From: Telluria aromaticivorans
GTDB taxonomy: Bacteria > Pseudomonadota > Gammaproteobacteria > Burkholderiales > Burkholderiaceae_D
Reading direction: 5' to 3'
Assembly (NCBI RefSeq): GCF_013003915.1
Contig: NZ_JABAIV010000006.1
Coordinates: forward strand, 158,812-222,811
DNA: 64,000 bases
Shown: positions 21,273-51,960 of the stretch, one piece after another
Layout: each line of letters opens with the position of its first letter
Numbering within the stretch: the first letter of the stretch is position 1
Notes under the pieces: generated by a model
What the model saw: only the letters and a program-made list of their open reading frames with translations
Told to the model about the DNA's origin: nothing
The model's database searches: none
Translations under genes and position numbers: made by a program

Positions 21273-21348
21273 GGCCTGGTAGCTCAGTTGGTAGAGCAGA
21301 GGATTGAAAATCCTTGTGTCGGTGGTTCGATTCCGCCCCGGGCCACCA
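21273..21348 (+). tRNA. tRNA-Phe (anticodon GAA), copy 1
   Basis: A 76-nt cloverleaf from GGCCTGGTAGCTCAGTTGG to an encoded CCA, with anticodon loop TTGAAAA giving GAA. It is identical to the copy at 43737, within an exact 83-bp repeat (21270-21352 and 43734-43816). It has its own promoter and terminator. Degenerate copies of its 3' half lie 3.0 kb and 3.8 kb downstream, so the gene appears to have been an insertion site. Confidence 0.98.
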
Positions 21349-21366
21349 AGAATTCAGCAGCAAAGC

Positions 21367-21397
21367 AAAACGCCAACCCATGCAGGTTGGCGTTTTT
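21367..21397 (+). terminator. intrinsic terminator of tRNA-Phe copy 1
   Basis: AAAACGCCAACC (21367-21378) pairs with GGTTGGCGTTTT across a CATGCA loop and continues into TTTTT. The same hairpin is repeated almost unchanged at 24327-24356 after the tRNA fragment there. Confidence 0.9.
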
Positions 21398-21588
21398 GTT
21401 TCTGGAATCCAAAGTCTCGCGGCCGGTCAATTGCCGGTCGGGGCTCACCTCCCACTTCCGAGCTCGCGGCCAAGCACAAACTGAAACTGCCAATCTTGCT
21501 CGGGAACTCAGGCAAGCAGTGGTACAACTGCATTCATGAGCTGCGTTTTCGGTAGGCGAGCCGATCACGGTTAGAGGAAAGCGCAGCG

Positions 21589-23142
21589 TCACAGCAAATC
21601 CAGGTTCGCCGTGATCCATTGAGCCTGCCGTTGGCAGTCCACAACCGCAGCTTCGTCCATTTTCTCCAGCTGTCGGTACACCATGCCAATGCGTGGATTC
21701 CTTGCCAAGGCAGGCGCGTTGCGACGGAAAAAATCCCAGTACAGCGCGTTGAACGGACAGGCAAGATCGCCAATGCGGCTTCTTTTATCGTAGTGGCAGC
21801 CTTTGCAATAATCGCTCATCCGGTCGATATAGGCGGCACTGGAGACATAGGGTTTGGTTGCCAATAAACCGCCGTCGGCGAACTGGCTCATGCCCACCGT
21901 ATTGGGAAGTTCGACCCACTCGAAGGCGTCGATGTAGATGCCCAGATACCACCGGTGCACCTCCCCAGGATCCAGGCCTGCAAGCAGGGCGAAATTACCA
22001 ATAATCATCAGGCGCTGGATGTGATGTGCATGTGCCTGCTCCAGCGATTGCGTTATCGCGTGATTCAGGCAGTTCATCGTGGTTTTGCCATCCCAGAACC
22101 AGGCTGGCAGCGCCCGCGTATGGCCGAAAAAGTTCTTTTCCGAGTACTCGGGCATCTTTGCCCAATACACGCCGCGCACATATTCACGCCACCCTAAAAT
22201 CTGCCGGATAAAGCCTTCTACTGCCGCCAGTGGTGCATGCCCCGCATGATAAGCGGCCTCAGCTCTGATGACGACTTCGCGCGGATTCAACATCTTGACG
22301 TTCAAAGCGAACGACAACAGCGAATGGAATAAGCGCCACGCGTTGACGCTCATCGCATCTTGAAAATCACCGAAGTGCGGCAACGCCTTATCGATAAACG
22401 CATCCAGTTGTTGCAAGGCCTCTTCCCGGTTCAGCGCCCATGCGAGCTGATCGGCTTTTGGATTGCCAAAGCTTGTCACGCCCGCATCCACAATCGTTTT
22501 CCACAAGCTGGAATGATCATGCAAGGTCCGAGGATCGCTCGGCTCGGCCGGTTTGCCGCGCCACGGCTTGCGGTTGGCGGCATCATAGTTCCACTGGCCA
22601 CCCACCGGCTTGCCGGCGTCTTCCATCAGGACCCGGTGCTCGACGCGCATCTGGCGGTAGAAAAACTCCATCAGCCATTGCTTGCGCCCCGCAAAAATGT
22701 CGGCGGCCTGATTACGGGTTGAATAGAAATGGTCGCTATCGACCATTAAATAGGGGACCCGCGAGCGACGTCCGTGCTGATACAACTGCTCATCAAGGCG
22801 CCATTCGTCTGGCGCCTGGTATTCAACAGCGGTCGCCCGGTACTGAATGATCAGTGCGTCGATATTGGCGGGAATCGATTGTAAGTTCTGCGGGTCGTCG
22901 ATCGCCAGATAATGCACATGGTGGCCAGCCTCGCGTAGCTGGCGCGCCAGGTCACGCATCGCGGCAAAGATCGCCAGGATTTTTTGTGCATGATGGAGTA
23001 CATAGTCGGTTTCTTGCCGCACCTCCATCAAGACATAGATTGTTGCGTCGTCAACGTCGGTAAACCAGCGATGCTGCAGATTGAGCTGGTCGCCAAGGAT
23101 CAGCCTGATCGTGCGCCCTGATGTGCGTTCTGTCGTAGTCAT
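21589..23142 (-). CDS. Fe-S cluster photolyase / cryptochrome-related protein (PhrB/CryB type)
   Basis: A 517-aa member of the prokaryotic (6-4)-photolyase group that binds FAD and a 4Fe-4S cluster. The N-terminal photolyase-related domain begins RLILGDQLNLQHRWF, the family signature. Candidate cluster cysteines match PhrB: one in TTMNCLNHAI, two in DYCKGCHYD, and one in GDLACPFNALYWDFF. The length agrees with the family. It would repair UV (6-4) photoproducts using light. The ATG at 23142 has AAGGTAAAG upstream. Divergent from the SDR gene (180-bp gap). It lies in the segment between tRNA-Phe and its first displaced fragment, with GC lower than the flanks by eye. Confidence 0.93.
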   Translation of the reverse strand: MTTTERTSGRTIRLILGDQLNLQHRWFTDVDDATIYVLMEVRQETDYVLHHAQKILAIFAAMRDLARQLREAGHHVHYLAIDDPQNLQSIPANIDALIIQYRATAVEYQAPDEWRLDEQLYQHGRRSRVPYLMVDSDHFYSTRNQAADIFAGRKQWLMEFFYRQMRVEHRVLMEDAGKPVGGQWNYDAANRKPWRGKPAEPSDPRTLHDHSSLWKTIVDAGVTSFGNPKADQLAWALNREEALQQLDAFIDKALPHFGDFQDAMSVNAWRLFHSLLSFALNVKMLNPREVVIRAEAAYHAGHAPLAAVEGFIRQILGWREYVRGVYWAKMPEYSEKNFFGHTRALPAWFWDGKTTMNCLNHAITQSLEQAHAHHIQRLMIIGNFALLAGLDPGEVHRWYLGIYIDAFEWVELPNTVGMSQFADGGLLATKPYVSSAAYIDRMSDYCKGCHYDKRSRIGDLACPFNALYWDFFRRNAPALARNPRIGMVYRQLEKMDEAAVVDCQRQAQWITANLDLL

Positions 23143-23322
23143 CTTTACCTTGTTACATTTCGGCGATTAAGCAATCGTCGGTCGCCACGACCCGGCAGTT
23201 TAACGGAGTCGCGTGGTGGTCGCCGCCGTTCACTTTGCCAAACGATTCGGTCGTCTCCGCTCGTGTCCCGCCATACCTCCGGTACACTCAGTTCCCAGTC
23301 CGATTACGAGGAGAATTACATC

Positions 23323-24021
23323 ATGATGAGCAGTCTTCCCGACCAGTTTCACGCATTGGTGATAGGAGCCTCGGGTGCGATCGGGGCAGCCTTTGTCGAC
23401 TTGCTCAGGAGTTCGCCGCGCTGCGCATCCGTGTGTGGCCTGCACCGCCACTCAACGCCGCGCCTCGACTTCACTGACGAAAACAGCGTCGCCGACGCAG
23501 CACGTGTCCTCGGTGCCGGCCCACGTTACCACCTGATCATCAATGCGGCGGGCCTGTTGCACAGCGAAGCCTTCATGCCGGAGAAACGCCTGGCCGACCT
23601 GAATTACATGCAGATGCAGGCGACCTTCCAGGCGAATACCTTCGGTCCCGCGCTGGTGATGCGCCATTTCGTCGCGCTGCTGGCCAGCGAACGCGCCATC
23701 ATGGCCATGCTGTCAGCAAAGGTGGGCAGCATCGGCGACAACCGGCTGGGTGGCTGGTACAGCTACCGCGCTTCCAAGGCCGCCCTCAATATGATGGTCA
23801 AGACAGCCGCAATCGAAGTCGCACGCAGCCAGAAAAACAGTGTGCTCGTTGCACTGCATCCGGGCACCGTCAGCTCACGCCTATCGCAACCATTTCGGGG
23901 CGAAACCGTCGGGCGCCCTGCACGTGACGCCGCTGCCGAAATGCTGCATGTCATCGATGCGCTAACGCCGGCAAACAGCGGCTCATTCCGATCCTACAAT
24001 GGCGCCGAATTGCCCTGGTAG
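23323..24021 (+). CDS. short-chain dehydrogenase/reductase (C-factor-like)
   Basis: A 232-aa SDR. The NAD(P)-binding GASGAIG is at about residue 13, the NAAG motif at about 83, catalytic Tyr and Lys in YSYRASKAAL, with an upstream Ser in LSAKVGSIGD. Post-catalytic VALHPGTVSSRLS is typical of the CsgA/C-factor subgroup. The start is ATG 23323 (or 23326) with GAGGAG about 10 bases upstream. Its divergence from the photolyase gene and proximity to a DUF2256 gene reproduce a neighbourhood I recall around PhrB-type photolyases. Substrate unknown. Confidence 0.88.
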   Translation: MMSSLPDQFHALVIGASGAIGAAFVDLLRSSPRCASVCGLHRHSTPRLDFTDENSVADAARVLGAGPRYHLIINAAGLLHSEAFMPEKRLADLNYMQMQATFQANTFGPALVMRHFVALLASERAIMAMLSAKVGSIGDNRLGGWYSYRASKAALNMMVKTAAIEVARSQKNSVLVALHPGTVSSRLSQPFRGETVGRPARDAAAEMLHVIDALTPANSGSFRSYNGAELPW

Positions 24022-24096
24022 CTTGCCGTCCACGATAAGCCGGCCATGCAGGCAGGAATGACCTGTCTTGCGCATCACGGCTGTACAATTACTGCC

Positions 24097-24267
24097 ATGA
24101 AAATGCGCAAGAAATCCGAGCTTCCGTCCAAGATATGCGCGCACTGCTCGCTTACTTTTACCTGGCGCAAAAAGTGGGAGCGCGACTGGGATCAGGTCAA
24201 GTATTGCTCGGAAAGATGCCGCCGCGCCTCCAAGCCGGCAGCAGAAGAATGCCGGAACGAGAATTGA
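24097..24267 (+). CDS. DUF2256 small zinc-ribbon-like protein
   Basis: A 56-aa protein, [20 protein letters not shown] followed by [23 protein letters not shown]. Two CxxC-type pairs (CAHC and CSERC) suggest zinc binding. This matches the DUF2256 family, often next to photolyase genes. The ATG at 24097 fits the family start. The last codons (Asn-Glu-Asn-stop) fall inside sequence homologous to the tRNA-Phe anticodon stem, so the natural 3' end abuts the insertion scar. Function unknown. Confidence 0.85.
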
Positions 24268-24357
24268 ACATCCTTGTGCCGGTGGCTCGATTCCGCCCCG
24301 GGCCACGAAGAATTCAGCAGTAAAGCAAAACGCCAACCCATGCAGGTTGGCGTTTTC
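24259..24357 (+). pseudogene. displaced tRNA-Phe 3' fragment plus terminator
   Basis: About 99 bp align with the anticodon stem-loop through acceptor end and downstream terminator of tRNA-Phe copy 1, with about seven substitutions. The 5' half of the tRNA is missing. The copy has GAACAT in the anticodon loop/stem and CCACGA at the acceptor end, so it is not a functional tRNA half. The hairpin (24327-24356) is preserved and can end transcription of the DUF2256 gene. Best explained as an attachment-site remnant. Confidence 0.85.
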
Positions 24358-24425
24358 GTTTCTGGGGTTCAAAACCCTTGTGTTGTTAGCCTTGAAGAAG
24401 TATCCGCCAAACTCAAGGCGATCCT

Positions 24426-24866
24426 TCAGTCTTTCTTTTCCTTGAACTCACCCTCGATCACCGTGTCATCGGTGCTTTTGGAAGGCTTTTGGCCAGTGAA
24501 TTTGTAGACAGACGATACCATTCGATTGAATATCGCTCTCCTCAACCAGGGGTAGGTGAGAAGAAAAGCCAAAGCAAACCCTGTGAATCCTGCCGGCACG
24601 TATTCGCCCCGCCACAGGAAGTTCAACAAGCACAGTGCGAGGATGCCCACGATGAGCGGTCGACGGGCAGGTTTCGGTAACAGGCCGACTATGCGCAGCT
24701 TACCGTTGCTTATCCAGGGAAATCTTGCAAAAAGACCAGCAAGAAGGAGGCCTGCGATGACCCGGCCAGTGCCGAGGTAATCGGCCAACACCCCGACGAC
24801 AAGGAAACCGGTGTAGGTCATCGTGCTGGCCAAGGCTGCCAGCCCCAATAACGCAACGGCGATCAT
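24426..24866 (-). CDS. small integral membrane protein, unknown function
   Basis: A 146-aa frame from ATG 24866 with three to four hydrophobic segments (IAVALLGLAALASTM, FLVVGVLADYLGTGRVIAGLLLAGLFA, PLIVGILALCLLNFLW, FTGFALAFLLTYPWL) and a charged tail ending DDTVIEGEFKEKKD. The frame remains open upstream into the tRNA-derived sequence at 25079, so a non-ATG start further upstream cannot be excluded. I do not recognise a family. It is bracketed by two tRNA-Phe remnants (24259 and 25022), which marks it as a separate insertion. Base composition is less GC-rich than the flanking core genes. Confidence 0.6.
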   Translation of the reverse strand: MIAVALLGLAALASTMTYTGFLVVGVLADYLGTGRVIAGLLLAGLFARFPWISNGKLRIVGLLPKPARRPLIVGILALCLLNFLWRGEYVPAGFTGFALAFLLTYPWLRRAIFNRMVSSVYKFTGQKPSKSTDDTVIEGEFKEKKD

Positions 24867-25021
24867 GAGCTTTGGCGTACGTATCGCCGTTCTGAGTAAA
24901 AGACCTAGGATTTGTGTACTCCTGCAAATGGGCGTCGGAAGGCTAGGGCAAATTTTATCAGTCCTCCCATGCTTGAGCTTTTCAAGCAAAACTGATAATG
25001 CGCGGCGCGAGCGATGGCCGA

Positions 25022-25098
25022 GGTTTGGTAGCCCAGATGCGAGCGCAGAGGATTGAACATCCTTGTGCCGGTGCCTCAATTCCGCCCCCGGGCCACCA
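25022..25098 (+). pseudogene. tRNA-Phe pseudogene, near full length
   Basis: A 77-nt copy from GGTTTGGTAGCCCAGATGCG to GGGCCACCA. The 5' acceptor strand (GGTTTGG) no longer pairs with CCGGGCC, the D-arm has changed, and the T-arm has CCTCAATT instead of GTTCGATT. It shares the GAACAT and GTGCCGG changes with the fragment at 24259, pointing to a common ancestor. Not expected to be functional. Confidence 0.85.
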
Positions 25099-25113
25099 AG
25101 AACTCAGCAGCAA

Positions 25114-43736: not shown

Positions 43737-43812
43737 GGCCTGGTAGCTCAGTTGGTAGAGCAGAGGATTGAAAATCCTTGTGTCGGTGGTTCGATTCCGC
43801 CCCGGGCCACCA
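43737..43812 (+). tRNA. tRNA-Phe (anticodon GAA), copy 2
   Basis: A 76-nt cloverleaf identical to the copy at 21273, with encoded CCA. A TAGAAT at 43721-43726 is a plausible -10. It is the left boundary of a 6.1-kb segment closed by an exact 44-bp repeat of its 3' end (43770-43813) at 49915-49958. Confidence 0.98.
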
Positions 43813-43813
43813 A
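43770..43813 (+). repeat. 44-bp direct repeat, left copy (tRNA-Phe 3' end; attL-like)
   Basis: From GAAAATCCTTGTG in the anticodon arm to GGGCCACCAA just past the tRNA end. It is identical to 49915-49958 in the same orientation. Direct repeats comprising a tRNA 3' end are the standard mark of site-specific integration. Confidence 0.85.
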
Positions 43814-43827
43814 GAACATCGTTCACG

Positions 43828-43855
43828 CAACGCCCACTCATCGAAGTGGGCGTTG
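43828..43855 (+). terminator. intrinsic terminator of tRNA-Phe copy 2
   Basis: CAACGCCCACT pairs with AGTGGGCGTTG across CATCGA, an 11-bp stem followed by TCGTTTC. Its sequence differs from the copy-1 terminator, although the tRNA genes are identical. Confidence 0.8.
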
Positions 43856-43888
43856 TCGTTTCTAGGATTCGTAGTCCTCGGCTCCGGT

Positions 43889-44474
43889 CTATATCCGGGT
43901 GGAGCCACCTGCAGTCCGACCATCGCTAATGCGTTTGGACGCCTCATCGACTACCGGTTCGCTGTTGACCTGCGCTGCAATCGCATAGGCACGCACGGTC
44001 GCCGGGCGCTGCCGCACACGTTCGAACCAGGCGGCCAAGTGCGGAAAGTCCTGCAGGTCCTAGCGCTGGTGTTCGTGCGTACGATCCAGGGATAGCAGGC
44101 GATGTCCGCGACCGAGTACTCGCCCGCAATATATGTGCGCCCGTCCGCCAGGTGCTTGTTGAGCACCGCATAGAGGCGCGCCGTTTCCTTGACGTAGCGT
44201 TCTATGGCCTACGCGATAGTTTCCGGCACGTATTGGGTGAAGTGGTGGTTCTGTCCCGCCATTGGCCCAGCCCGTCCATCTGCCAGAACAGCCATTGCAG
44301 GGCAAGGGTGCGCCGCGCAGGTCTTGTGGCAAAAGTTGCCCTCTCTTTTAAGCCAGGTGCAGCAAGATGGCGCCCGACTCGAACACGTAAATCGGCGCGT
44401 CACCTTCCGCCGGCGCCTGGTCGACAATAGTGGGAATACGGTTATTTGGCGAAATGTGCAGAAACTCGGGCTGG
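43889..44474 (-). pseudogene. glutathione S-transferase pseudogene (YfcG-like)
   Basis: Reading the reverse strand from 44474 gives QPEFLHISPNNRIPTIVDQ, then IYVFESGAILLHLA and an in-frame stop where a Glu codon is expected. Further frames give GLGPMAGQNHHFTQYVPETIA, LNKHLADGRTYIAGEYSVAD and IACYPWIVRTHEHQR, then a TAG where Gln is usual, then DLQDFPHLAAWFERV and RQRPATVRAYAIAAQ to a stop at 43889. So the gene has at least two nonsense changes plus frameshifts, and the first 50 or so residues (glutathione site start) are missing. It lies right inside the left boundary of the tRNA-Phe cassette. Confidence 0.85.
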
Positions 44475-44563: not shown

Positions 44564-45424
44564 TCAGTGATGATGTTCAAGCAGTTGCATCGGAATTGCG
44601 GGCTGCTGCATGCCATTCGCCATAAGCCAGGTTTTGGTACTGGCTTTCGCACGCGAGATTAAGGTGCCACACGCGCTGTAATCGTAGGGAGAAACGTCCA
44701 GTGGGCAAAGCGGCGGAACGACAATCAATTGTGCCGCCGATGCATAGCGTTGCAGGTCAGCTACGAGCTGGCGCGCGATGAGCAAGCTCAGAGCATGCAG
44801 CACCTGCGCGATCAGGGTTACCGGCGGCCGTTGAAGTGCACAAGCAAAACCGGTCGGCAGCACGACGATTCGCTTCGCGCCCAAATCAATCGCAACAGAA
44901 ATGGGCGTGTTGTTCGCTACGCCGCCATCGACCAGATCGCGTCCGTTCACTGTTACCGGCGGAAATATTCCCGGAATCGCAGCACTCGCCATCACGGCTT
45001 CAACCACCGGCCCGCGCGAGAGCACGACCTCGCCTCCTGACAAATTGTCGGTTGCCACGATATGCAATGGCAGGACCGTGTTTTCAATCAAACCATAGTT
45101 CAGGTTCGCTTCCAGCAGTCTCCGAATGCCCGAAACACTCACTAACGATGGACGCCGGAAAACTAACATGGAGAGCATTGAGCGCATTGTCAATGGCATG
45201 ATCTCGTTGCGTCGCACCTCACTCCACAGCTGCTCCAACCTCAAAACGCCAGAACCGCTCGGCGCTTGGGCAAAAAACGCAGCATTGATCGCTCCAGCTG
45301 AGGCTCCAATGACAATATCCGGATGCACGTCGTGCGCGACTAGCTCATGGAGCATGCCAACTTGCACCGCGGCCAAGCTTCCGCCGCCAGCAAATACGAA
45401 GGCCGTCATTGGATTTATGGTCAT
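44564..45424 (-). CDS. patatin-like phospholipase
   Basis: A 286-aa patatin-domain hydrolase. The oxyanion motif AFVFAGGGSLAAVQVG, nucleophile Ser42 in GASAG, and catalytic Asp in LVDGGVANN form the Ser-Asp dyad. It should hydrolyse acyl esters of lipids. No signal peptide. Its start lies 26 bp from the stop of the molybdo-oxidoreductase gene and it is co-directional, so it probably ends the same operon. Composition and AT-richer codons differ from core genes nearby. Confidence 0.9.
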   Translation of the reverse strand: MTINPMTAFVFAGGGSLAAVQVGMLHELVAHDVHPDIVIGASAGAINAAFFAQAPSGSGVLRLEQLWSEVRRNEIMPLTMRSMLSMLVFRRPSLVSVSGIRRLLEANLNYGLIENTVLPLHIVATDNLSGGEVVLSRGPVVEAVMASAAIPGIFPPVTVNGRDLVDGGVANNTPISVAIDLGAKRIVVLPTGFACALQRPPVTLIAQVLHALSLLIARQLVADLQRYASAAQLIVVPPLCPLDVSPYDYSACGTLISRAKASTKTWLMANGMQQPAIPMQLLEHHH

Positions 45425-45449: not shown

Positions 45450-46226
45450 TCAGATCCCCGCATACCACTGATATCCATTGCTGTCTTCCCAGTAGCCTCC
45501 TTTTCCACCATAGACATTTTCAAGGCTGCTCACCAGTTCAATCCGCATCAGGTATTTCGCATGTTTATACCCTAATTGCCTTTCCACTCGCAGCCTGAGC
45601 GGTGCTCCGTTCGGAATGGGCAAGGGATTGCCGTTGAGTTCGTAAGCCAGGATGGTTTGGGGATGATAAGCATCGTCCATATCGATGCTTTCGTAATACA
45701 GGCTAGTGCCATCGCTTTCCATGGGATCGGCGCAGTGAAATACGGCAAAGCGCGCCGCTGGCGTCGGCTGTACCGCGTGCAACACCTCGGCCAAAGGGGT
45801 CCCTTTCCATTTTCCGATCGCGCTCCACCCCTCCACGCAGTCATGGCGGGTGATTTGGGTACGGCTTGGCAGTGCCCGCAGCTGCGCCAGCGAAAAATTT
45901 TTTGTTTCGGCTACTAGCCCGTCTACTCTTAATGCCCAGTTGGCAAATTGATCGGTGGCTAGTGCCTGGTACAGCCGGCTTTCTGGGCTGGCGGTGCCAT
46001 TGCTGCGGAAATACGGCGATAGATCGGCTTCAGTAAATTCTTGCGCCATCGATTTTCGCGGGATGAGGGCCTTATGAACGCCCCTGCTGAAATCCTCGGA
46101 GCTACTCAGGATTCTTGGGAACCAAGTTGTTTCGTTGAGCCGGTCGCATCCGGCGACGAACAGTGTCGCCATGGCCCCCAGCGAGCGACGCAGGAAGCGG
46201 CGCCGGTTCGAGTGGTCGGAGTTCAT
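45450..46226 (-). CDS. molybdopterin-dependent oxidoreductase (sulfite-oxidase/YedY fold), Tat-exported
   Basis: A 258-aa protein. RRRFLRRSLGAMATLFVAGC combines a twin-arginine motif with a lipobox-like VAGC, so it may be a Tat-exported lipoprotein. The Moco domain (about 95-240) has Cys130 in RHDCVEGWSAIGKWKG as molybdenum ligand, as in sulfite oxidase and MsrP. It lacks the haem and dimerisation domains of SuoX. The start overlaps the cytochrome b stop by 4 bases (ATGA), so the two are translationally coupled and likely form an electron-transfer pair. Substrate unknown. Confidence 0.9.
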   Translation of the reverse strand: MNSDHSNRRRFLRRSLGAMATLFVAGCDRLNETTWFPRILSSSEDFSRGVHKALIPRKSMAQEFTEADLSPYFRSNGTASPESRLYQALATDQFANWALRVDGLVAETKNFSLAQLRALPSRTQITRHDCVEGWSAIGKWKGTPLAEVLHAVQPTPAARFAVFHCADPMESDGTSLYYESIDMDDAYHPQTILAYELNGNPLPIPNGAPLRLRVERQLGYKHAKYLMRIELVSSLENVYGGKGGYWEDSNGYQWYAGI

Positions 46227-47134
46227 GAGGAAGGCTCTTTTTCAGGGTTGGATTGGATAGCGTAATACCCAGTGATCATTGAACGCAAATGATTCCAGAG
46301 ACCGCTGACCATCACTTCGAAAACATGAATCAGTACGAAAGAAAGCAACAAGCAGGCGACGATGAAATGAATCGAGCGTGCTGACTGCCGCCCGCCAAAC
46401 AGATCCACCCATCCGGTCATCAGGCTATTGAGCATCGGTGACATCGCCATGCCCGTCACGACGATCAGGGGCAGCAGGATGAAAATAACGATGAGATATG
46501 CCAGCTTTTGCAATACGTTGTAACGCCGCGCAGCCTCACCTTCCGGGTGCTTGAAGCGCAGATGCTCGATGATCGAGGCGCCGATGCCTCGCAGGTCCCG
46601 CCCGTCAGGCAACAAGTCGCGCCGAAGATGGCCGCTTAGCAGCGTGTATGCGATGTAGAAGAAGCCGTTCAGGACGAACAGCCAGGCAAAAAAGAAATGC
46701 CACAGGCGCGAATCCGCGAGTGAGTAGGCGCCTGGAATGGTCAGCCATGATGGGAATGCACGTTCGTTGTGCGTGCCGCTGGCTGAAGTCGACACACCCA
46801 ATACGCCCGTCGTGTCAAATTCAACTCCACCGATACGCAGTCTCCCGCGCTTCTCACCAGATTGTGTTGGTTTCGCTTCGCCTCCCGGCGCCTGACCGTC
46901 AGTAGCGGCAAGCACGGTCTCCGACCTAATTTCGAGAAACGCCGGCTCGTTTGAATAAGAAGACGCGCCCCAGTAAAGCGTGGGATGGGCATTGAATATC
47001 CCCAGGCCGCTCATTAACAGGACGATCAGGCAGAGAAGATTAATCCAGTGACTGATTCGTACCGGCAATCGATGCCGATAATATCGCGTGCTGGCACGCG
47101 GCATATGCAGGGGCAAGGGATTTTCGGTAGGCAT
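46223..47134 (-). CDS. cytochrome b561/thiosulfate-reductase-type membrane subunit
   Basis: A 303-aa integral membrane protein with four to five helices. Haem-ligand candidates are His in PVRISHWINLLCLIVLLMSG, WHFFFAWLFVLNG, and RSIHFIVACLLLSFVLIHVFEV, the pattern of Ni-hydrogenase/thiosulfate-reductase cytochrome b subunits. A long periplasmic loop (about 60-130) separates helices 1 and 2. It overlaps the Tat molybdoprotein gene, so it most likely anchors and exchanges electrons between that enzyme and the quinone pool. Confidence 0.9.
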   Translation of the reverse strand: MPTENPLPLHMPRASTRYYRHRLPVRISHWINLLCLIVLLMSGLGIFNAHPTLYWGASSYSNEPAFLEIRSETVLAATDGQAPGGEAKPTQSGEKRGRLRIGGVEFDTTGVLGVSTSASGTHNERAFPSWLTIPGAYSLADSRLWHFFFAWLFVLNGFFYIAYTLLSGHLRRDLLPDGRDLRGIGASIIEHLRFKHPEGEAARRYNVLQKLAYLIVIFILLPLIVVTGMAMSPMLNSLMTGWVDLFGGRQSARSIHFIVACLLLSFVLIHVFEVMVSGLWNHLRSMITGYYAIQSNPEKEPSS

Positions 47135-47236: not shown

Positions 47237-47554
47237 TTATTTTTTCGTCTCGTCCTTGCCCATTGCGCCATCCTTTTTCATGTGGCTAGCTGCCATATCG
47301 TCCTTTTTCATTTCATCCTTACGCATGTGATCCTTGGCCATGCCGTGTTTTTTCATGCCATCCTTCCCCTTTGCCATATGCGTCTTCGCCATGCCATCCT
47401 TCTTCATGCTGTCCTTGGCCATGTGGTCTTTGGCCATGCGGTCCTTGGCCATGCTGTCGCCAGCCATGGCGTCCTTCGTCATCGCGTCTTGCGCGAAAGC
47501 GGCGCCGGAGCCCAGCAAGCAGGCAGAAAAAACTGCGATTCTTATCTTGTTCAT
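47237..47554 (-). CDS. pentapeptide MXKDX repeat protein, secreted
   Basis: A 105-aa protein: signal peptide NKIRIAVFSACLLGSGAAFA, then a low-complexity mature chain of about 17 repeats of the form M-x-K-D-x (DAMAGDSMAKDRMAKDHMAK and variants). The regular Met, Lys, Asp and occasional His suggest a metal-binding or highly charged periplasmic protein; the family (penta_MxKDx) is uncharacterised. The DNA shows a matching 15-bp periodicity, so repeat number can change by recombination. ATG 47554 has AAGGGAAA upstream. Lies between the DUF1223 and cytochrome b genes. Confidence 0.92.
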   Translation of the reverse strand: MNKIRIAVFSACLLGSGAAFAQDAMTKDAMAGDSMAKDRMAKDHMAKDSMKKDGMAKTHMAKGKDGMKKHGMAKDHMRKDEMKKDDMAASHMKKDGAMGKDETKK

Positions 47555-47696: not shown

Positions 47697-48479
47697 TCAG
47701 CTCCGACTCGGGTCGCACTGACCGATGCTTACCGCCTGCTGGACGATGCCGTCGTCCAGGTCTTGCACGAACGCCACCGCCTGTAGATTCTGCAGGTTCC
47801 AATTACCTGGAATACGCATCGCCTGGTGCAACTGTGCTCTACCCCTGCTCAACCTGACTGGCGGGAACCAGGCTCGTACGGTATCGTCGTGCATCAGGGT
47901 CGCGCCGCCGTTTTCCCCGCGCAGCACCTTCGAGACCAGCCTGCTCTCGCTGACGGCCAGGTAAAGTACCTGCCGGGCCTGTGGATCACGTCCTGTAGCG
48001 ACGGCCTCAAGCTGGACGGTATCGCCGGCCGCCCGGGTCCACGTGAGCGCAACGCTTGCCTCTGCCGGTTTTTGATTGGTTTTGCGAATTGCGTCCGGGA
48101 ACTGGCCGCGCCAGTTCCGTAACTCCCTGCCATTCATGAAAAACTGCGGCGTGTAGACCAGCCTGCTTTTCCCATGGCTGGCCAACAGCTTCTGGCGCAG
48201 ATCGAACTCCTTTTGTGCGAAGCCATCCTTCCAGCCAATCCGATCCCAATACGTCACATGCAAGGCAAGCGGAATGATCACTGCGTTGCGGCCGGCTTTG
48301 CCCCGTAGCTGGCTCAATTCCCGGTCGGCCGGTGGGCAACTCGAGCAGCCTTCGCTTGTGTATAGTTCAACCAGAGCGGCCGTACCCGGGCCGCTCTCGG
48401 CCCGGCAGCTGTTTTGACCAAAGGACGGGGTCGCAAGACAGAATGCAAATCCTGAAATAGCCACTGCAATCGGTTTCAT
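47697..48479 (-). CDS. DUF1223 secreted thioredoxin-like protein
   Basis: A 260-aa protein with signal peptide MKPIAVAISGFAFCLATPSFG. VELYTSEGCSSCPPADRELSQL carries Cys45 and Cys48 of a CxxC redox site in a thioredoxin-like fold; VTYWDRIGWKDGFAQKEF, YTPQFFMNGRE and a C-terminal beta domain follow DUF1223. The role is probably periplasmic thiol redox. ATG 48479 is preceded at 48520-48545 by a GTAACC-N16-CGAA promoter pattern identical to that of the divergent sigma-factor gene. Confidence 0.9.
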   Translation of the reverse strand: MKPIAVAISGFAFCLATPSFGQNSCRAESGPGTAALVELYTSEGCSSCPPADRELSQLRGKAGRNAVIIPLALHVTYWDRIGWKDGFAQKEFDLRQKLLASHGKSRLVYTPQFFMNGRELRNWRGQFPDAIRKTNQKPAEASVALTWTRAAGDTVQLEAVATGRDPQARQVLYLAVSESRLVSKVLRGENGGATLMHDDTVRAWFPPVRLSRGRAQLHQAMRIPGNWNLQNLQAVAFVQDLDDGIVQQAVSIGQCDPSRS

Positions 48480-48519: not shown

Positions 48520-48545
48520 TTCGCGCCCCCGGGCAATTTGGTTAC
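48520..48545 (-). promoter_or_regulatory. ECF-sigma-type promoter of the DUF1223 gene
   Basis: On the reverse strand GTAACC (48545-48540) and CGAA (48523-48520) are separated by exactly 16 bp. The pattern is the same as at 48667-48692 before the sigma-factor gene and, as I recall, matches the promoter reported for Caulobacter SigF. It lies 41 bp upstream of the DUF1223 start. Confidence 0.8.
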
Positions 48546-48666
48546 AGGACCCGTGAAAAATATCGCGCGCAGCAGCGAGCATGCCGAGGGCACGCGTCTG
48601 GATGCGAAGCCGGCGCTGATTCGAACCGGCTGAAGGGAGATGACGAGCAATATTTTTTGATTTGCT

Positions 48667-48692
48667 GTAACCGTCCTGGCATCCGCAACGAA
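48667..48692 (+). promoter_or_regulatory. autoregulatory ECF-sigma-type promoter of the sigma/nrsF operon
   Basis: GTAACC (48667-48672), 16 bp, CGAA (48689-48692). It is an exact match to the divergent promoter at 48520-48545, with the start about 10-15 bp before the GTG of the sigma gene. Positive autoregulation is the simplest reading. Confidence 0.8.
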
Positions 48693-48709: not shown

Positions 48710-49255
48710 GTGAGCGCAAGCGAAAACCGGTTCCGCGAACTGCTGCTTCGCGCTCTGTCAGGAGATGCACCGGCCTACCATCTGTTTTTGAGAGAGTTAT
48801 GTCCGTATTTGCGGGCGTACTTCAGGCGTCGCCTGGGAGGGTTGCCGGATGAAATTGAAGACCTGGTGCAAGAGGTGCTGCTGGCGGTGCACAACCAGCG
48901 CCACACTTACGAGAAAAGCCAACCGCTGACTGCCTGGGTCCATGCCATCGCACGCCACAAACTGGTGGATTTGCTGCGCCGGCGCGGCAAGCGGGAGATG
49001 TTGAATATACCGCTCGACGATGAAACCGAATTTTTTGCACATTCCGAGATCGACGCCGGCGATGCGCGGCGCGATGTGATGAAACTACTCGACCGCTTGC
49101 CCGACAGGCAACGCCTTCCGATTCAGCATTTGAAGCTGGAAGGCATGTCGGTGGAAGAAACGGCGCGCCTGATGGGAATGTCGGTATCGGCTGTCAAAGT
49201 GGGCGTACACCGTGGCCTGAAAATGCTGGCTGAACTGATCAAGGACGAACGATGA
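48710..49255 (+). CDS. ECF-type RNA polymerase sigma factor (SigF-like)
   Basis: A 181-aa sigma-70-family protein with region 2 ([47 protein letters not shown]) and region 4 ([44 protein letters not shown]). The start is GTG 48710 with AGGAG six bases upstream. Its stop overlaps the next ATG (ATGA), coupling it to the NrsF-type anti-sigma gene, the arrangement of Caulobacter sigF-nrsF, which responds to chromate and cadmium. Its promoter and that of the divergent DUF1223 gene share one motif. Confidence 0.93.
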
Positions 49256-49893
49256 AGACAGAAGAGTTCATTAATATGCTGGCCGCTGGCGCCGCGCCGG
49301 TGAGCTCAGCTGCGGCCGCAAGCCGCTTTGCCTGGGGGCTGGGCTGCGGCTTGATGGGAGCGATCCTTCTGATGGCCCTGGTGTTCGGTGTACGGAATGA
49401 TATTGCGCAAGCGGCTATGCTGCCGATGTTCTGGGCGAAAGTGCTGGTGCCGGCCATGGGCGCCTTGACCGCATTGCCGCTAACGATACGACTCTCGTAC
49501 CCGGGACGGTCTTCGGGGTCAGCACCGCTGGTGCTGGCGGCCCTGCTGCTATTTGCGTGGGGCAGCGCCGGCGCGGCCCTGCTCGATCAACCACCTGCAG
49601 AACGTGCGGAAATCATTTTTGGAGCCACCTGGAAAACATGCGCGTTCAATATTGCGCTGCTGGCATTGCCCTTGCTCGGCGCCGCATTTTGGGTCATCAA
49701 GGGTTTGGCGCCGACCCGGCCGGCGTGGGCCGGCGCCAGCGCCGGTTTGCTTGCGGGCGCCGGCGCCGCCTCCGTGTACGCATTGCACTGCCCGGAAATG
49801 GCAGCGCCGTTCCTCGGCATCTGGTACGTGCTTGGAATTGCCGTACCAGCAGTGTTCGGTGCCGTGCTGGGGCCCCGGTTGCTGCGTTGGTGA
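49252..49893 (+). CDS. NrsF-like anti-sigma factor (DUF1109)
   Basis: A 213-aa inner-membrane protein with six hydrophobic segments, the DUF1109/NrsF pattern. It should sequester the sigma factor at the membrane until a stress signal releases it. One cysteine (TWKTCAFN) is in a membrane-proximal stretch and another in ALHCPEM near the last helix pair; in NrsF periplasmic cysteines are needed for signal sensing, so these two are candidates. Translationally coupled to the sigma gene. Confidence 0.9.
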
Positions 49894-49914: not shown

Positions 49915-49958
49915 GAAAATCCTTGTGTCGGTGGTTCGATTCCGCCCCGGGCCACCAA
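49915..49958 (+). repeat. 44-bp direct repeat, right copy (displaced tRNA-Phe 3' end; attR-like)
   Basis: Identical over 44 bp to 43770-43813, including the T-arm and CCACCAA. The tRNA 5' half is absent; upstream sequence is unrelated (the nrsF 3' end is 21 bp away). Not a functional tRNA. Confidence 0.88.
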
Positions 49959-49966
49959 CAATAAAT

Positions 49967-49992
49967 AACGCCAACCCGCTCGGGTTGGCGTT
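49967..49992 (+). terminator. terminator at the right boundary of the tRNA-Phe cassette
   Basis: AACGCCAACCC pairs with GGGTTGGCGTT across GCTC, followed by GTTGTT. It resembles the tRNA-Phe copy-1 hairpin and probably is the original tRNA-Phe copy-2 terminator displaced by the insertion. It also ends the sigma/nrsF transcript. Confidence 0.8.
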
Positions 49993-50423: not shown

Positions 50424-51314
50424 TTAATTCCCGCCCTGCGCCTGTGCCATCTCGAGCGCGGGCAAGGTGACCGTCAGGAAGGAGGACACCTGGCCGACCA
50501 GGTCGGCGGCCTGCTGGCGCACCTGCCCCATCTGCAGCACCGACAGCTCTGCCTGGCGCACTGCCTGCTGGACCAGCGTGCGGCGCTGCACCAGTGCGTC
50601 CGACAAGGCCGCATCCAGCGCGCCACCGGCGAGCTTTGCCACCACGGCCAGCGCAGCCCCGTGCAAGGCCAGGTTCTGCGCCGATTCTTCCAGGTTGTGC
50701 GTGGCCACCTCGCTGTCCGCCATGAGCTGCAGCAGCTGCGTACGGCTTGACGCCAACGCTGCCTTGTACTCGGCGGGCGATGTCGTGCGGCGGAACAGCT
50801 TGCCGAACACGCCGGTTGGCGCCCTGGTGCTCTCCAGCGCGGCCTCGAGCAGCGCGGGCACTGCCATTTGCGAGAACTTCAGCACCAGCTCGGTAATGGG
50901 CTGGAGCAGCGCGGCCTGCTCCATCAAGGGCCCCTCGGCCCAGTCGGTGACCAGCTTCAGCCTGACCGGCAGGAGACGGCGGAACAGCGCGGCCAGGCGC
51001 TGCTCCGCGTGCTCGACCAGACCCGGATAGTCGGCCCAGGCGAGGCCCAGGGCATCGCGCACCGCCGGATGGTCTTCGCTCTCGAACAGCGCCTTGGCCA
51101 TGGCCTTCGAGGTGGCGCCGGTGCGCGCCGCGGTTGCGGGAAGCTCGTCGAAGGACAGCGCCCTGGGCGGGCTGGCGGGGACAGGCGACGCCGGTACGCT
51201 GCCCTGCTCGGCGCCGAAGTCGAGCGCCTGCGGCACAGCAGGACGTTCGACGGGCTCCGGGGACGGCTCCGGCTCCGCGCCGAAATCGAATGCCTTGGGC
51301 GTATGGTGTGTCAT
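50424..51314 (-). CDS. uncharacterised helical protein of the telA-terD operon
   Basis: A 296-aa soluble protein. The N-terminal 55 residues are Pro/Glu-rich and repeat a short motif: FDFGAEPEP, LDFGAEQGS, LSFDELPA. The rest is predominantly helical with a coiled-coil flavour (AEQRLAALFRRLLPVRLKLVTDW, LVQQAVRQAELSVLQMGQVRQQAADLV). No family recognised. It follows terD by 58 bp in the same direction, after telA, so it likely belongs to the same tellurite/stress module and could bind TelA or TerD. No catalytic motif seen. Confidence 0.8.
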   Translation of the reverse strand: MTHHTPKAFDFGAEPEPSPEPVERPAVPQALDFGAEQGSVPASPVPASPPRALSFDELPATAARTGATSKAMAKALFESEDHPAVRDALGLAWADYPGLVEHAEQRLAALFRRLLPVRLKLVTDWAEGPLMEQAALLQPITELVLKFSQMAVPALLEAALESTRAPTGVFGKLFRRTTSPAEYKAALASSRTQLLQLMADSEVATHNLEESAQNLALHGAALAVVAKLAGGALDAALSDALVQRRTLVQQAVRQAELSVLQMGQVRQQAADLVGQVSSFLTVTLPALEMAQAQGGN

Positions 51315-51372
51315 CGGCTGGCGTCGTGGGCCATGAGCGCGGCGACTGGAAGGCAGCAGTACCCGGCCGTCC

Positions 51373-51960
51373 TCAGACGGTGCCGCCGAGCTTGCGGATG
51401 AAGGTCGCCAGGTTCAGCTTGAAGCCGGCGCCGACGGCATGGAAGCGCCATTCGCCATCCTTGCGGTACAGCGAACCGAACTGCAGCGCGGTCTTGTCCG
51501 AATAGTCTTCGTCCAGGTCGTATTCGGCGATCACTTCGCCGGTCTCGTCGTTGTACACCTTCACGTAGGCGTCGGTGACCCGGCCAAAGGTCTGCTTGCG
51601 TGCCTCGGCCTCATGGATGGTGACCACGATCGGCATTTCCATGACGGCCGCGTCGACCTTGCCGAGATCGACGGTGATCACTTCGTCGTCGCCATCCTTG
51701 TCGCCGGTGCGGTTGTCGCCGGAGTGTACGACGGCGCCATCCGGCGAGGTGGTGTGGTTGTAGTAGACGAAGTGGGCGTTGCTGAGCATGACCGGATGGT
51801 CGCTCGCATCTTTCTTGCACAGGAAGACAGACGAGTCGAGGTCGAAGGCCTGGCCTTCGGCCGCGTTGACCTTCCATCCGAGGCCGATACGAACACGCTG
51901 CAAGCCCGGGGCGGTTTTTTCGAGATTGATGCGATGGCCAGTTTCGAGCGTCGTCGACAT
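51373..51960 (-). CDS. TerD-family stress-response protein
   Basis: A 195-aa TerD/TerE domain protein. INLEKTAPGLQRVRIGLGWKVN, LDSSVFLCKKDASDHPVMLSNAHFVYYNH, SGDNRTGDKDGDDEVITVDLGKVDAAV contain the Asp-rich calcium-binding loop of the family. TerD proteins bind Ca2+ and are linked to tellurite, phage and oxidant resistance. ATG 51960 with AAGGAA upstream; 69 bp from the telA stop. Only one TerD paralogue is present and no terB/terC, so this is a minimal version. Confidence 0.94.
   Translation of the reverse strand: MSTTLETGHRINLEKTAPGLQRVRIGLGWKVNAAEGQAFDLDSSVFLCKKDASDHPVMLSNAHFVYYNHTTSPDGAVVHSGDNRTGDKDGDDEVITVDLGKVDAAVMEMPIVVTIHEAEARKQTFGRVTDAYVKVYNDETGEVIAEYDLDEDYSDKTALQFGSLYRKDGEWRFHAVGAGFKLNLATFIRKLGGTV

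Follow-up and report, generated by a model that had tools for sequence, protein, structure and literature searches.

What does it mean that the genes for an ECF sigma factor and a DUF1223 protein in Telluria aromaticivorans point away from each other behind two copies of one promoter motif, what would switch such a pair on, and how did it come to lie where it does? Here, we address these questions for a window of 64 kb, the whole stretch of DNA that was analysed, and consider it likely that a self-contained SigF/NrsF (ECF16) regulon arrived on a 6.1-kb island bounded by copies of a tRNA-Phe end and works as set out below. The switch consists of the following features:

48710..49255, + strand: sigF, ECF sigma factor with GTG start (PF04542, PF08281; NF009188 at 277.8 bits, cut-off 250)
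49252..49893, + strand: nrsF, membrane anti-sigma factor (DUF1109; PF06532 at 217 bits)
48667..48692, + strand: putative SigF-type promoter of the sigma/anti-sigma operon, exact GTAACC-N16-CGAA
48520..48545, − strand: putative SigF-type promoter of DUF1223 and the leftward genes, exact GTAACC-N16-CGAA

The sigma protein scores above the cut-off of the PRK12536 sigma subfamily, and its gene overlaps nrsF by 4 nt on the + strand. NrsF passes its Pfam cut-off and reaches 130 bits against the NCBIfam equivalog NF042994, below the cut-off of 300; its cysteines C130 and C180 are invariant in all ten aligned sequences and are placed like C131/C181 of the Caulobacter protein and C129/C179 of the Brucella protein (available text of PMC3511200 and PMC8315932). 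A sigma gene beside a DUF1109/NrsF gene, two cysteines and GTAACC-N16-CGAA promoters, three of the features by which an ECF16 SigF/NrsF regulon is recognised, are found here. The gene calls of the first-pass annotation are correct by Pfam and NCBIfam profile matches, and its view of the pair as SigF with its own anti-sigma factor agrees with the PF06532 and PRK12536 results. Among relatives the distribution of NrsF is patchy, with a match in 19 of 101, 17 of them above the cut-off, and in five other genomes of the genus the sigma, anti-sigma, mrpX, cytochrome and Mo-enzyme genes occur together.

GTAACC-N16-CGAA is present exactly twice in the window, back to back and facing outward, where 0.02 exact copies are expected by chance and a pair arose in none of 100 shuffles. 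Allowing one mismatch yields six sites against 2.24 expected (three of 100 shuffles reach six), the remaining four all distant from the sigF/DUF1223 locus. The first-pass annotation had placed divergent exact sites at 48520-48545 and 48667-48692, had seen no third copy in the window, had thought the pair unlikely to be due to chance and had recognised the pattern of Caulobacter SigF; the window scan bears out the first three points, and the Caulobacter motif is printed in the available text of PMC3511200. The genome-wide scan that it proposed, run for the exact pattern only (5.23 Mb, 24 contigs), gives four copies against three for the reversed control; both copies outside the island fall within long open frames, so that only the island pair stands out. 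A third promoter elsewhere in the genome was discarded as a candidate on the same ground. On the sequence, the exact motif marks two putative promoters, both at the sigF/DUF1223 locus, whose ends lie 17 nt from the sigma GTG and 40 nt from the DUF1223 ATG; besides this pair, the island scan found no further exact GTAA-N16..23-CGAA variant.

Further NrsF loci were found in named genomes by an NrsF alignment scan, and the best 80 of at least 120 were kept (1.05 Mb). Within these, the spacing spectrum of GTAACC-Nk-CGAA gives 148 sites at k = 16 and ten at k = 15, every other spacing from 10 to 23 giving 0-3 sites, with 0-7 in the reversed control. At least one exact site occurs in 71 of these best 80 loci and none in nine; the site lies within 400 bp upstream of sigF in 56 and is absent there in 24, a divergent exact site stands upstream of sigF in 51, and 40 have the outward pair with both promoters. 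The extended consensus of the 148 sites reads CT-GTAACC-N16-CGAA-YTA. When the NrsF loci of relatives were scanned (n = 15), each of the 12 with strong NrsF (L054-L061, L065-L068) held at least one exact site, located in L068 beyond the sigma gene; three genus genomes with weak NrsF-like matches (L062-L064) held none, which counts against our explanation. On the basis of the spacing-16 peak and the shared outward pair, we read the window pair as promoters of the SigF (ECF16) type; that the twin motif is a chance sequence, a reading in whose favour nothing was found, is hardly credible against the window shuffles and the N16 spacing spectrum.

Leftward of the divergent promoter lie five genes:

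47697..48479, − strand: DUF1223, thioredoxin-fold protein with signal peptide and CSSC (PF06764 at 171 bits)
47237..47554, − strand: mrpX-like MXKDX methionine-rich exported peptide (TIGR02953 at 80 bits, cut-off 41)
46223..47134, − strand: cytochrome b561-type membrane subunit with a putative YedZ1-like role (PF01292 at 88 bits)
45450..46226, − strand: molybdopterin oxidoreductase with a putative YedY/MsrP-like role (PF00174 at 118 bits)
44564..45424, − strand: patatin-like phospholipase, final gene of the leftward run (PF01734 at 114 bits)

Both cysteines of the DUF1223 C-x-x-C are invariant in 17 of 17 aligned sequences, and the protein, whose signal peptide was read by eye, is a relative of PDB 2axo, listed as thioredoxin-fold in the available text of PMC3091736; no link between DUF1223 and a sigma factor was found in the literature. 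The MXKDX peptide, above the TIGR02953 cut-off and with a signal peptide likewise read by eye, is of the kind that defines MrpX in the hypochlorite system, and the Mo-enzyme, matched by PF00174, scores 101.7 bits against the MsrP equivalog model, below its cut-off of 207. Within at most 7 kb on each side of the best 80 of at least 120 NrsF loci there are relatives of the Mo-enzyme at 22, of cytochrome b at 21, of mrpX and DUF1223 at 16 each and of the patatin at three; two Paraburkholderia NrsF loci have patatin relatives at 62% (282 aa) and 65% (141 aa). By their sequences, the genes match the SigF/NrsF-MrpX-YedYZ methionine-repair system, with DUF1223 and the patatin as apparent extras.

Perchlorate reducers including Azospira suillum have sigF/nrsF, yedYZ and mrpX as a periplasmic methionine cycle that removes hypochlorite (available text of PMC4623255 and PMC5748585), and HOCl-induced bcrXQP of Brucella melitensis is under the control of an ECF16 pair, BcrS/AbcS, with −35/−10 elements of the same kind mapped by 5'-RACE (available text of PMC8315932). 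By analogy with these relatives, NrsF, by its family a six-helix membrane protein and here with two conserved cysteines, would hold SigF at the membrane until envelope oxidants, of which hypochlorite and related reactive chlorine are the likeliest, attack those cysteines and free the sigma factor. Freed SigF would then read the two GTAACC-N16-CGAA promoters, that of its own operon and that of DUF1223-mrpX-cytochrome b-Mo-enzyme-patatin. The methionine-rich MrpX-like peptide would absorb oxidant as methionine sulfoxide, which the Mo-enzyme and cytochrome b would reduce with membrane-derived electrons, while the DUF1223 thioredoxin-fold protein might tend thiols and disulfides and the patatin may remove damaged lipid. 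A SigF/NrsF-MrpX-YedY1Z1 hypochlorite system is reportedly what the original Azospira suillum study described.

The first-pass annotation had suggested a redox/metal-stress regulon; were metal stress the signal, the same SigF/NrsF switch would respond mainly to a heavy metal (chromate, cadmium) and methionine repair would be secondary. For Caulobacter SigF, both GTAACC-N16-CGAA and the role of the anti-sigma cysteines were established under chromate and cadmium, and one target is YedY (available text of PMC3511200); the Paraburkholderia plasmid described below, with its close cytochrome/Mo-enzyme pair near copper genes, also fits a metal signal. However, the Caulobacter metal-responsive regulon consists, in the same text, mostly of DUF692, DUF2282, DUF2063 and DoxX genes, families that the gene content of the island does not include, and the MXKDX peptide, membrane partner and Mo-enzyme are the hypochlorite and methionine sulfoxide set of Azospira and Brucella as far as the available reports go. 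Metal stress as the likeliest signal is not supported by these comparisons, and we regard it, the Caulobacter branch, as less likely than hypochlorite and, as the main signal, distinctly improbable.

With reactive chlorine as the preferred signal, the reach of the divergent promoter has also to be considered. The gaps running from DUF1223 through mrpX, cytochrome b and the Mo-enzyme to the patatin are 142, 102, −4 and 25 nt. An own SigF-type promoter for mrpX was rejected as a candidate, no SigF variant being found in the DUF1223-mrpX gap. The leftward genes might nevertheless form two units, with SigF driving DUF1223 alone and mrpX-cytochrome b-Mo-enzyme-patatin separately promoted, as the 142-nt gap and a weak terminator-like hairpin between DUF1223 and mrpX would suggest. 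We think this unlikely, since the island has no second SigF-type site for them, the sole sigma-70-like site found in the island scan lies inside nrsF, and L137 and L175 have these genes, reordered, after one divergent site. Comparable operons of variable gene order behind one divergent site are found in other species (L137, L147, L175). The leftward operon that the first-pass annotation predicted from the DUF1223 promoter is probably real, to judge from these gaps and from the lack of a further SigF site inside it.

For the sigma factor the nearest relatives are betaproteobacterial (up to 70%). Those of the cytochrome b and the Mo-enzyme are encoded as a pair by a Paraburkholderia fungorum plasmid (54% and 65%); in a search of 299 genomes from the phylum, the top other match to the Mo-enzyme reached 66% and came from the same order. 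The same two proteins show 49-58% identity to those of alphaproteobacterial SigF loci as against 29-45% to those of same-genus SigF loci, and because they are closer to the alphaproteobacterial and Paraburkholderia proteins than to those of the genus, they must at some point have been joined to the sigma factor. On that plasmid (L220, NZ_CP099644.1), the close cytochrome b/Mo-enzyme pair adjoins a tyrosine integrase and copper-related genes, and no sigma factor is annotated in the 14.8 kb shown.

The island itself is delimited by the following features:

43737..43812, + strand: intact tRNA-Phe (gaa), putative integration site (ARAGORN)
43770..43816, + strand: left att copy, the last 43 nt of tRNA-Phe plus 4 nt (47-nt direct repeat, 98%)
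43830..43854, + strand: hairpin just inside the left att (read from the sequence; same arrangement after other att copies)
43873..43898, + strand: conserved 26-nt box, 60 nt after the tRNA end (comparison with relatives' units)
43951..44166, − strand: remnant at the left end of the island resembling a glutathione S-transferase C-terminal domain (PF13410 at 22 bits, below cut-off)
49915..49961, + strand: right att copy (47-nt direct repeat, 98%, 6145 bp on)
49967..49992, + strand (the scan lists −): terminator-like hairpin just outside the right att, on the chromosomal side (scan; comparison with other att copies)

The GC content is 57.2% in the island against 63.3% in the rest of the window, and in one relative (G007) about 0.6 kb separates a tRNA-Phe with matching upstream sequence from the gene found here at the right border of the island, a near-empty site. 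By gene content there is no integrase inside the island, and neither PF00589 nor PF07508 matches anything on its contig (C21 of G000). The island shares two features with cis-mobilizable elements, namely borders formed on both sides by directly repeated ends of an RNA gene (47 nt, 98%) and the lack of an internal recombinase; a tycheposon was rejected as a class, the tRNA border being present but the contig having no tyrosine recombinase. The word 'portable', which the first-pass annotation had used without evidence, gains support from the flanking tRNA-Phe repeat. Scanning 88 other SigF/NrsF loci (two of them apparently one and the same Massilia rhizosphaerae contig) gave no tRNA-Phe att copy or box in the DNA covered, so that the case for the regulon moving as a unit is built on the present copy and on units with other cargo. 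On the right flank, at 50427-51960 of the window, a 296-aa protein without Pfam match adjoins a TerD gene; where found in fetched DNA, this protein lies 0.6 to 17 kb from tRNA-Phe.

Units with other cargo were sought in the DNA after one tRNA-Phe gene in 56 of 61 other genomes of the genus (4 to 20 kb, depending on the contig). The present genome has two tRNA-Phe genes, both in the window, and the fetched sites are not all the same one: four (L086, L087, L088, L124) have a lipocalin gene downstream, as after the window's other tRNA-Phe, and in six genomes (L124-L129) the upstream match is too short to tell which tRNA-Phe was fetched. A second copy of the 37-nt tRNA-Phe end (at least 31 of 37 positions) lies downstream in 20 of the 56, and in 16 at least one extra copy is partial, without the tRNA 5' half, and bounds small cargo units, which makes tRNA-Phe genes hotspots in these relatives; the other four (L086, L092, L093, L121) have as their extra copy a tRNA-Phe that is complete or almost so. 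Including the window, which contributes three, there are 29 bounded segments, two of which are long (11 and 15 kb) and four of which precede near-whole tRNA copies and may not be units. Cargo annotation covered 20 proteins from 15 segments by Pfam, ten of them also by PADLOC. Strong matches include Lamassu LmuA/LmuB and a type II-A retron pair, weak ones AbiGi and GajB-kind helicases with ankyrin repeats, and there are also a NACHT-Mrr protein and a PDC-M68A-like protein; further cargo comprises Mqo, MarR, glutamate dehydrogenase, LtrA, HDOD, a photolyase-related protein, a dehydrogenase and an alpha/beta hydrolase. Four of the 20 proteins had no match in the libraries against which they were run. 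Literature on Massilia tRNA-Phe islands was sought and none found.

One genome (G053) has four units in tandem. Its array after tRNA-Phe (L080/L069) carries AbiGi (a weak match), Lamassu LmuA/LmuB and the type II-A retron pair, as well as a 298-aa protein, alone in its unit and without Pfam or PADLOC match, which is possibly a new defence gene. Within the window, 21273-25101 holds the second tRNA-Phe and two more 3'-end copies at 24266 (39/43) and 25055 (33/43), which delimit a 2.9-kb unit with a photolyase-related (DPRP) gene and a short-chain dehydrogenase, and one of 0.75 kb. Units of three genomes (L078, L096, L099) have similar right-hand open frames, as judged by eye, and L078 and L099 also share a similar alpha/beta hydrolase (Pfam on L078), a likeness that suggests the spread of one unit.

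Many of these units share a left end, in which the tRNA end is followed by a terminator hairpin and, about 60 nt on, by the 26-nt box AGTCCTYGTGTCCGGTCYATTTCCGG. The box, at 17 or more of 26 positions, follows 18 of 27 unit-starting att copies as against two of 21 terminal and seven of 36 single copies (random stretches, 0.35%), a count that is partly circular because the consensus was read from some of the same units. Genus-wide and family-wide searches, and the att spacing of their matches, are more independent. Across the genus (62 genomes, up to three mismatches) the box was found at 21 places in 14 genomes, with one for the reversed control, and 19 of these places sit 59-61 nt after an att copy; of the other two, one lies 203 nt after an att beside an assembly gap and one after a copy that appears, by eye, decayed. 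Across the family the box occurs in 70 of 392 genomes and 11 of 44 genera, with one reversed-control hit among the matches listed, and of 30 such loci among the matches listed, 28 have a tRNA-Phe end (at least 30 of 37) 55-61 nt upstream and two do not. A viral vehicle was also considered and dropped, a 25-nt pattern of the box giving no exact match in viral_contigs.

What moves such units is presumed to be a recombinase supplied from elsewhere, or recombination between tRNA ends. A resident recombinase at the tRNA-Phe sites was rejected as a candidate: within 180 kb on the same contig, some contigs being only tens of kb long, neither a Phage_integrase domain nor a large serine recombinase was found in any of 12 genus genomes. 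Among 14 genomes from six other genera, where the tyrosine type was sought, a tyrosine-recombinase domain lies no more than 20 kb from the box in at least four. In G441 and G573 it lies near the box and beside tRNA-Ser; G407 has a short domain 1.9 kb from the box (C1) and one frame about 19 kb off (C21), and G446 has one about 17 kb away (C10). Because the att-copy arrays of G441 and G573 sit within an island that bears an integrase beside tRNA-Ser, units can ride inside other elements. The tRNA-Phe-end arrays of L280 and L289, in integrase islands beside tRNA-Ser, surround an AAA-type ATPase and unmatched genes, and the G441 array is about 540 kb from exact copies of the tRNA-Phe end.

It is possible, if somewhat doubtful, that the tRNA-Phe units are the defunct remains of larger islands that had an integrase and that the box is a decayed att copy. 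The box does resemble, by eye, a degraded tRNA 3' half, integrase-less islands at RNA genes are known and have been suggested to be cis-mobilizable elements (available text of PMC3146451), and the tyrosine-recombinase domains within 20 kb of the box in at least four of those 14 other-genus genomes, that of G407 (C1) 1.9 kb inside, would suit such an origin. The box, however, mostly keeps its distance (55-61 nt) and its sequence across genera and unrelated cargo, and it seldom follows the terminal att on the chromosome side (2/21 against 18/27). We tentatively entertain instead that these are small integrase-free cassettes, each a tRNA-Phe 3' half with terminator and fixed-distance 26-nt box, moved in trans among at least 11 genera with one complete system apiece. 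If so, they would correspond, on a tRNA basis, to the cassettes of integrons: the box would serve as recognition site, and the cargo would be an anti-phage system, a metabolic gene or, as here, a sigma factor together with all of its regulon. The conserved unit end offers a handle for finding the recombinase and for mining linked anti-phage systems. A sigma factor that travels with its anti-sigma factor, its only evident promoters and its targets needs no new wiring in the host, and this would account for the continued function of such regulons once they have been transferred.

Several known systems resemble parts of this arrangement. The Azospira suillum hypochlorite system is alike, by kind of gene rather than by protein alignment, in its sigma/anti-sigma pair, methionine-rich peptide and Mo-enzyme with partner, and, in the available text, it too lies within an island with a tRNA repeat (there 48 bp, of tRNA-Pro); it is unlike in that it belongs to a perchlorate-reduction island which has a xerD-like recombinase, whereas the present island stands alone at 6.1 kb, at tRNA-Phe, without recombinase and with DUF1223 and patatin added. 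BcrS/AbcS-BcrXQP of Brucella melitensis shares an ECF16 sigma factor, an NrsF-family anti-sigma factor, an MXKDX peptide, a reductase pair and the promoter type, and differs in gene content and other targets, with no tRNA island mentioned in the available text (PMC8315932). Caulobacter crescentus SigF/NrsF has the GTAACC-N16-CGAA promoters, the two NrsF cysteines and one YedY target in common with it, but most targets differ and the response is to chromate and cadmium (available text of PMC3511200). With regard to packaging, the ssrA islands of Dehalococcoides are tandem cargo islands bounded by copies of an RNA-gene 3' end, 15 of them without integration module, yet integrase-bearing sister islands share their array (available text of PMC3146451), whereas 12 genus genomes showed no such sister island in the neighbourhood of their tRNA-Phe sites. 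The additive flexible island of Methylophilaceae likewise has recurring tRNA 3' repeats (tRNA-Lys ends), but its available text mentions no shared box at a fixed distance, and the tycheposon there carries xerD (PMC10872708). In the literature covered, with most subscription papers outside its scope, we found no description of the fixed-distance box, of the spread over 11 genera or of a whole sigma regulon as such cargo. Oxidant-defence regulation by SigF/NrsF, tandem integrase-less islands at an RNA gene and additive tRNA-Lys islands are thus already known, and it is the packaging as one of a family of small integrase-less gene blocks that looks new.
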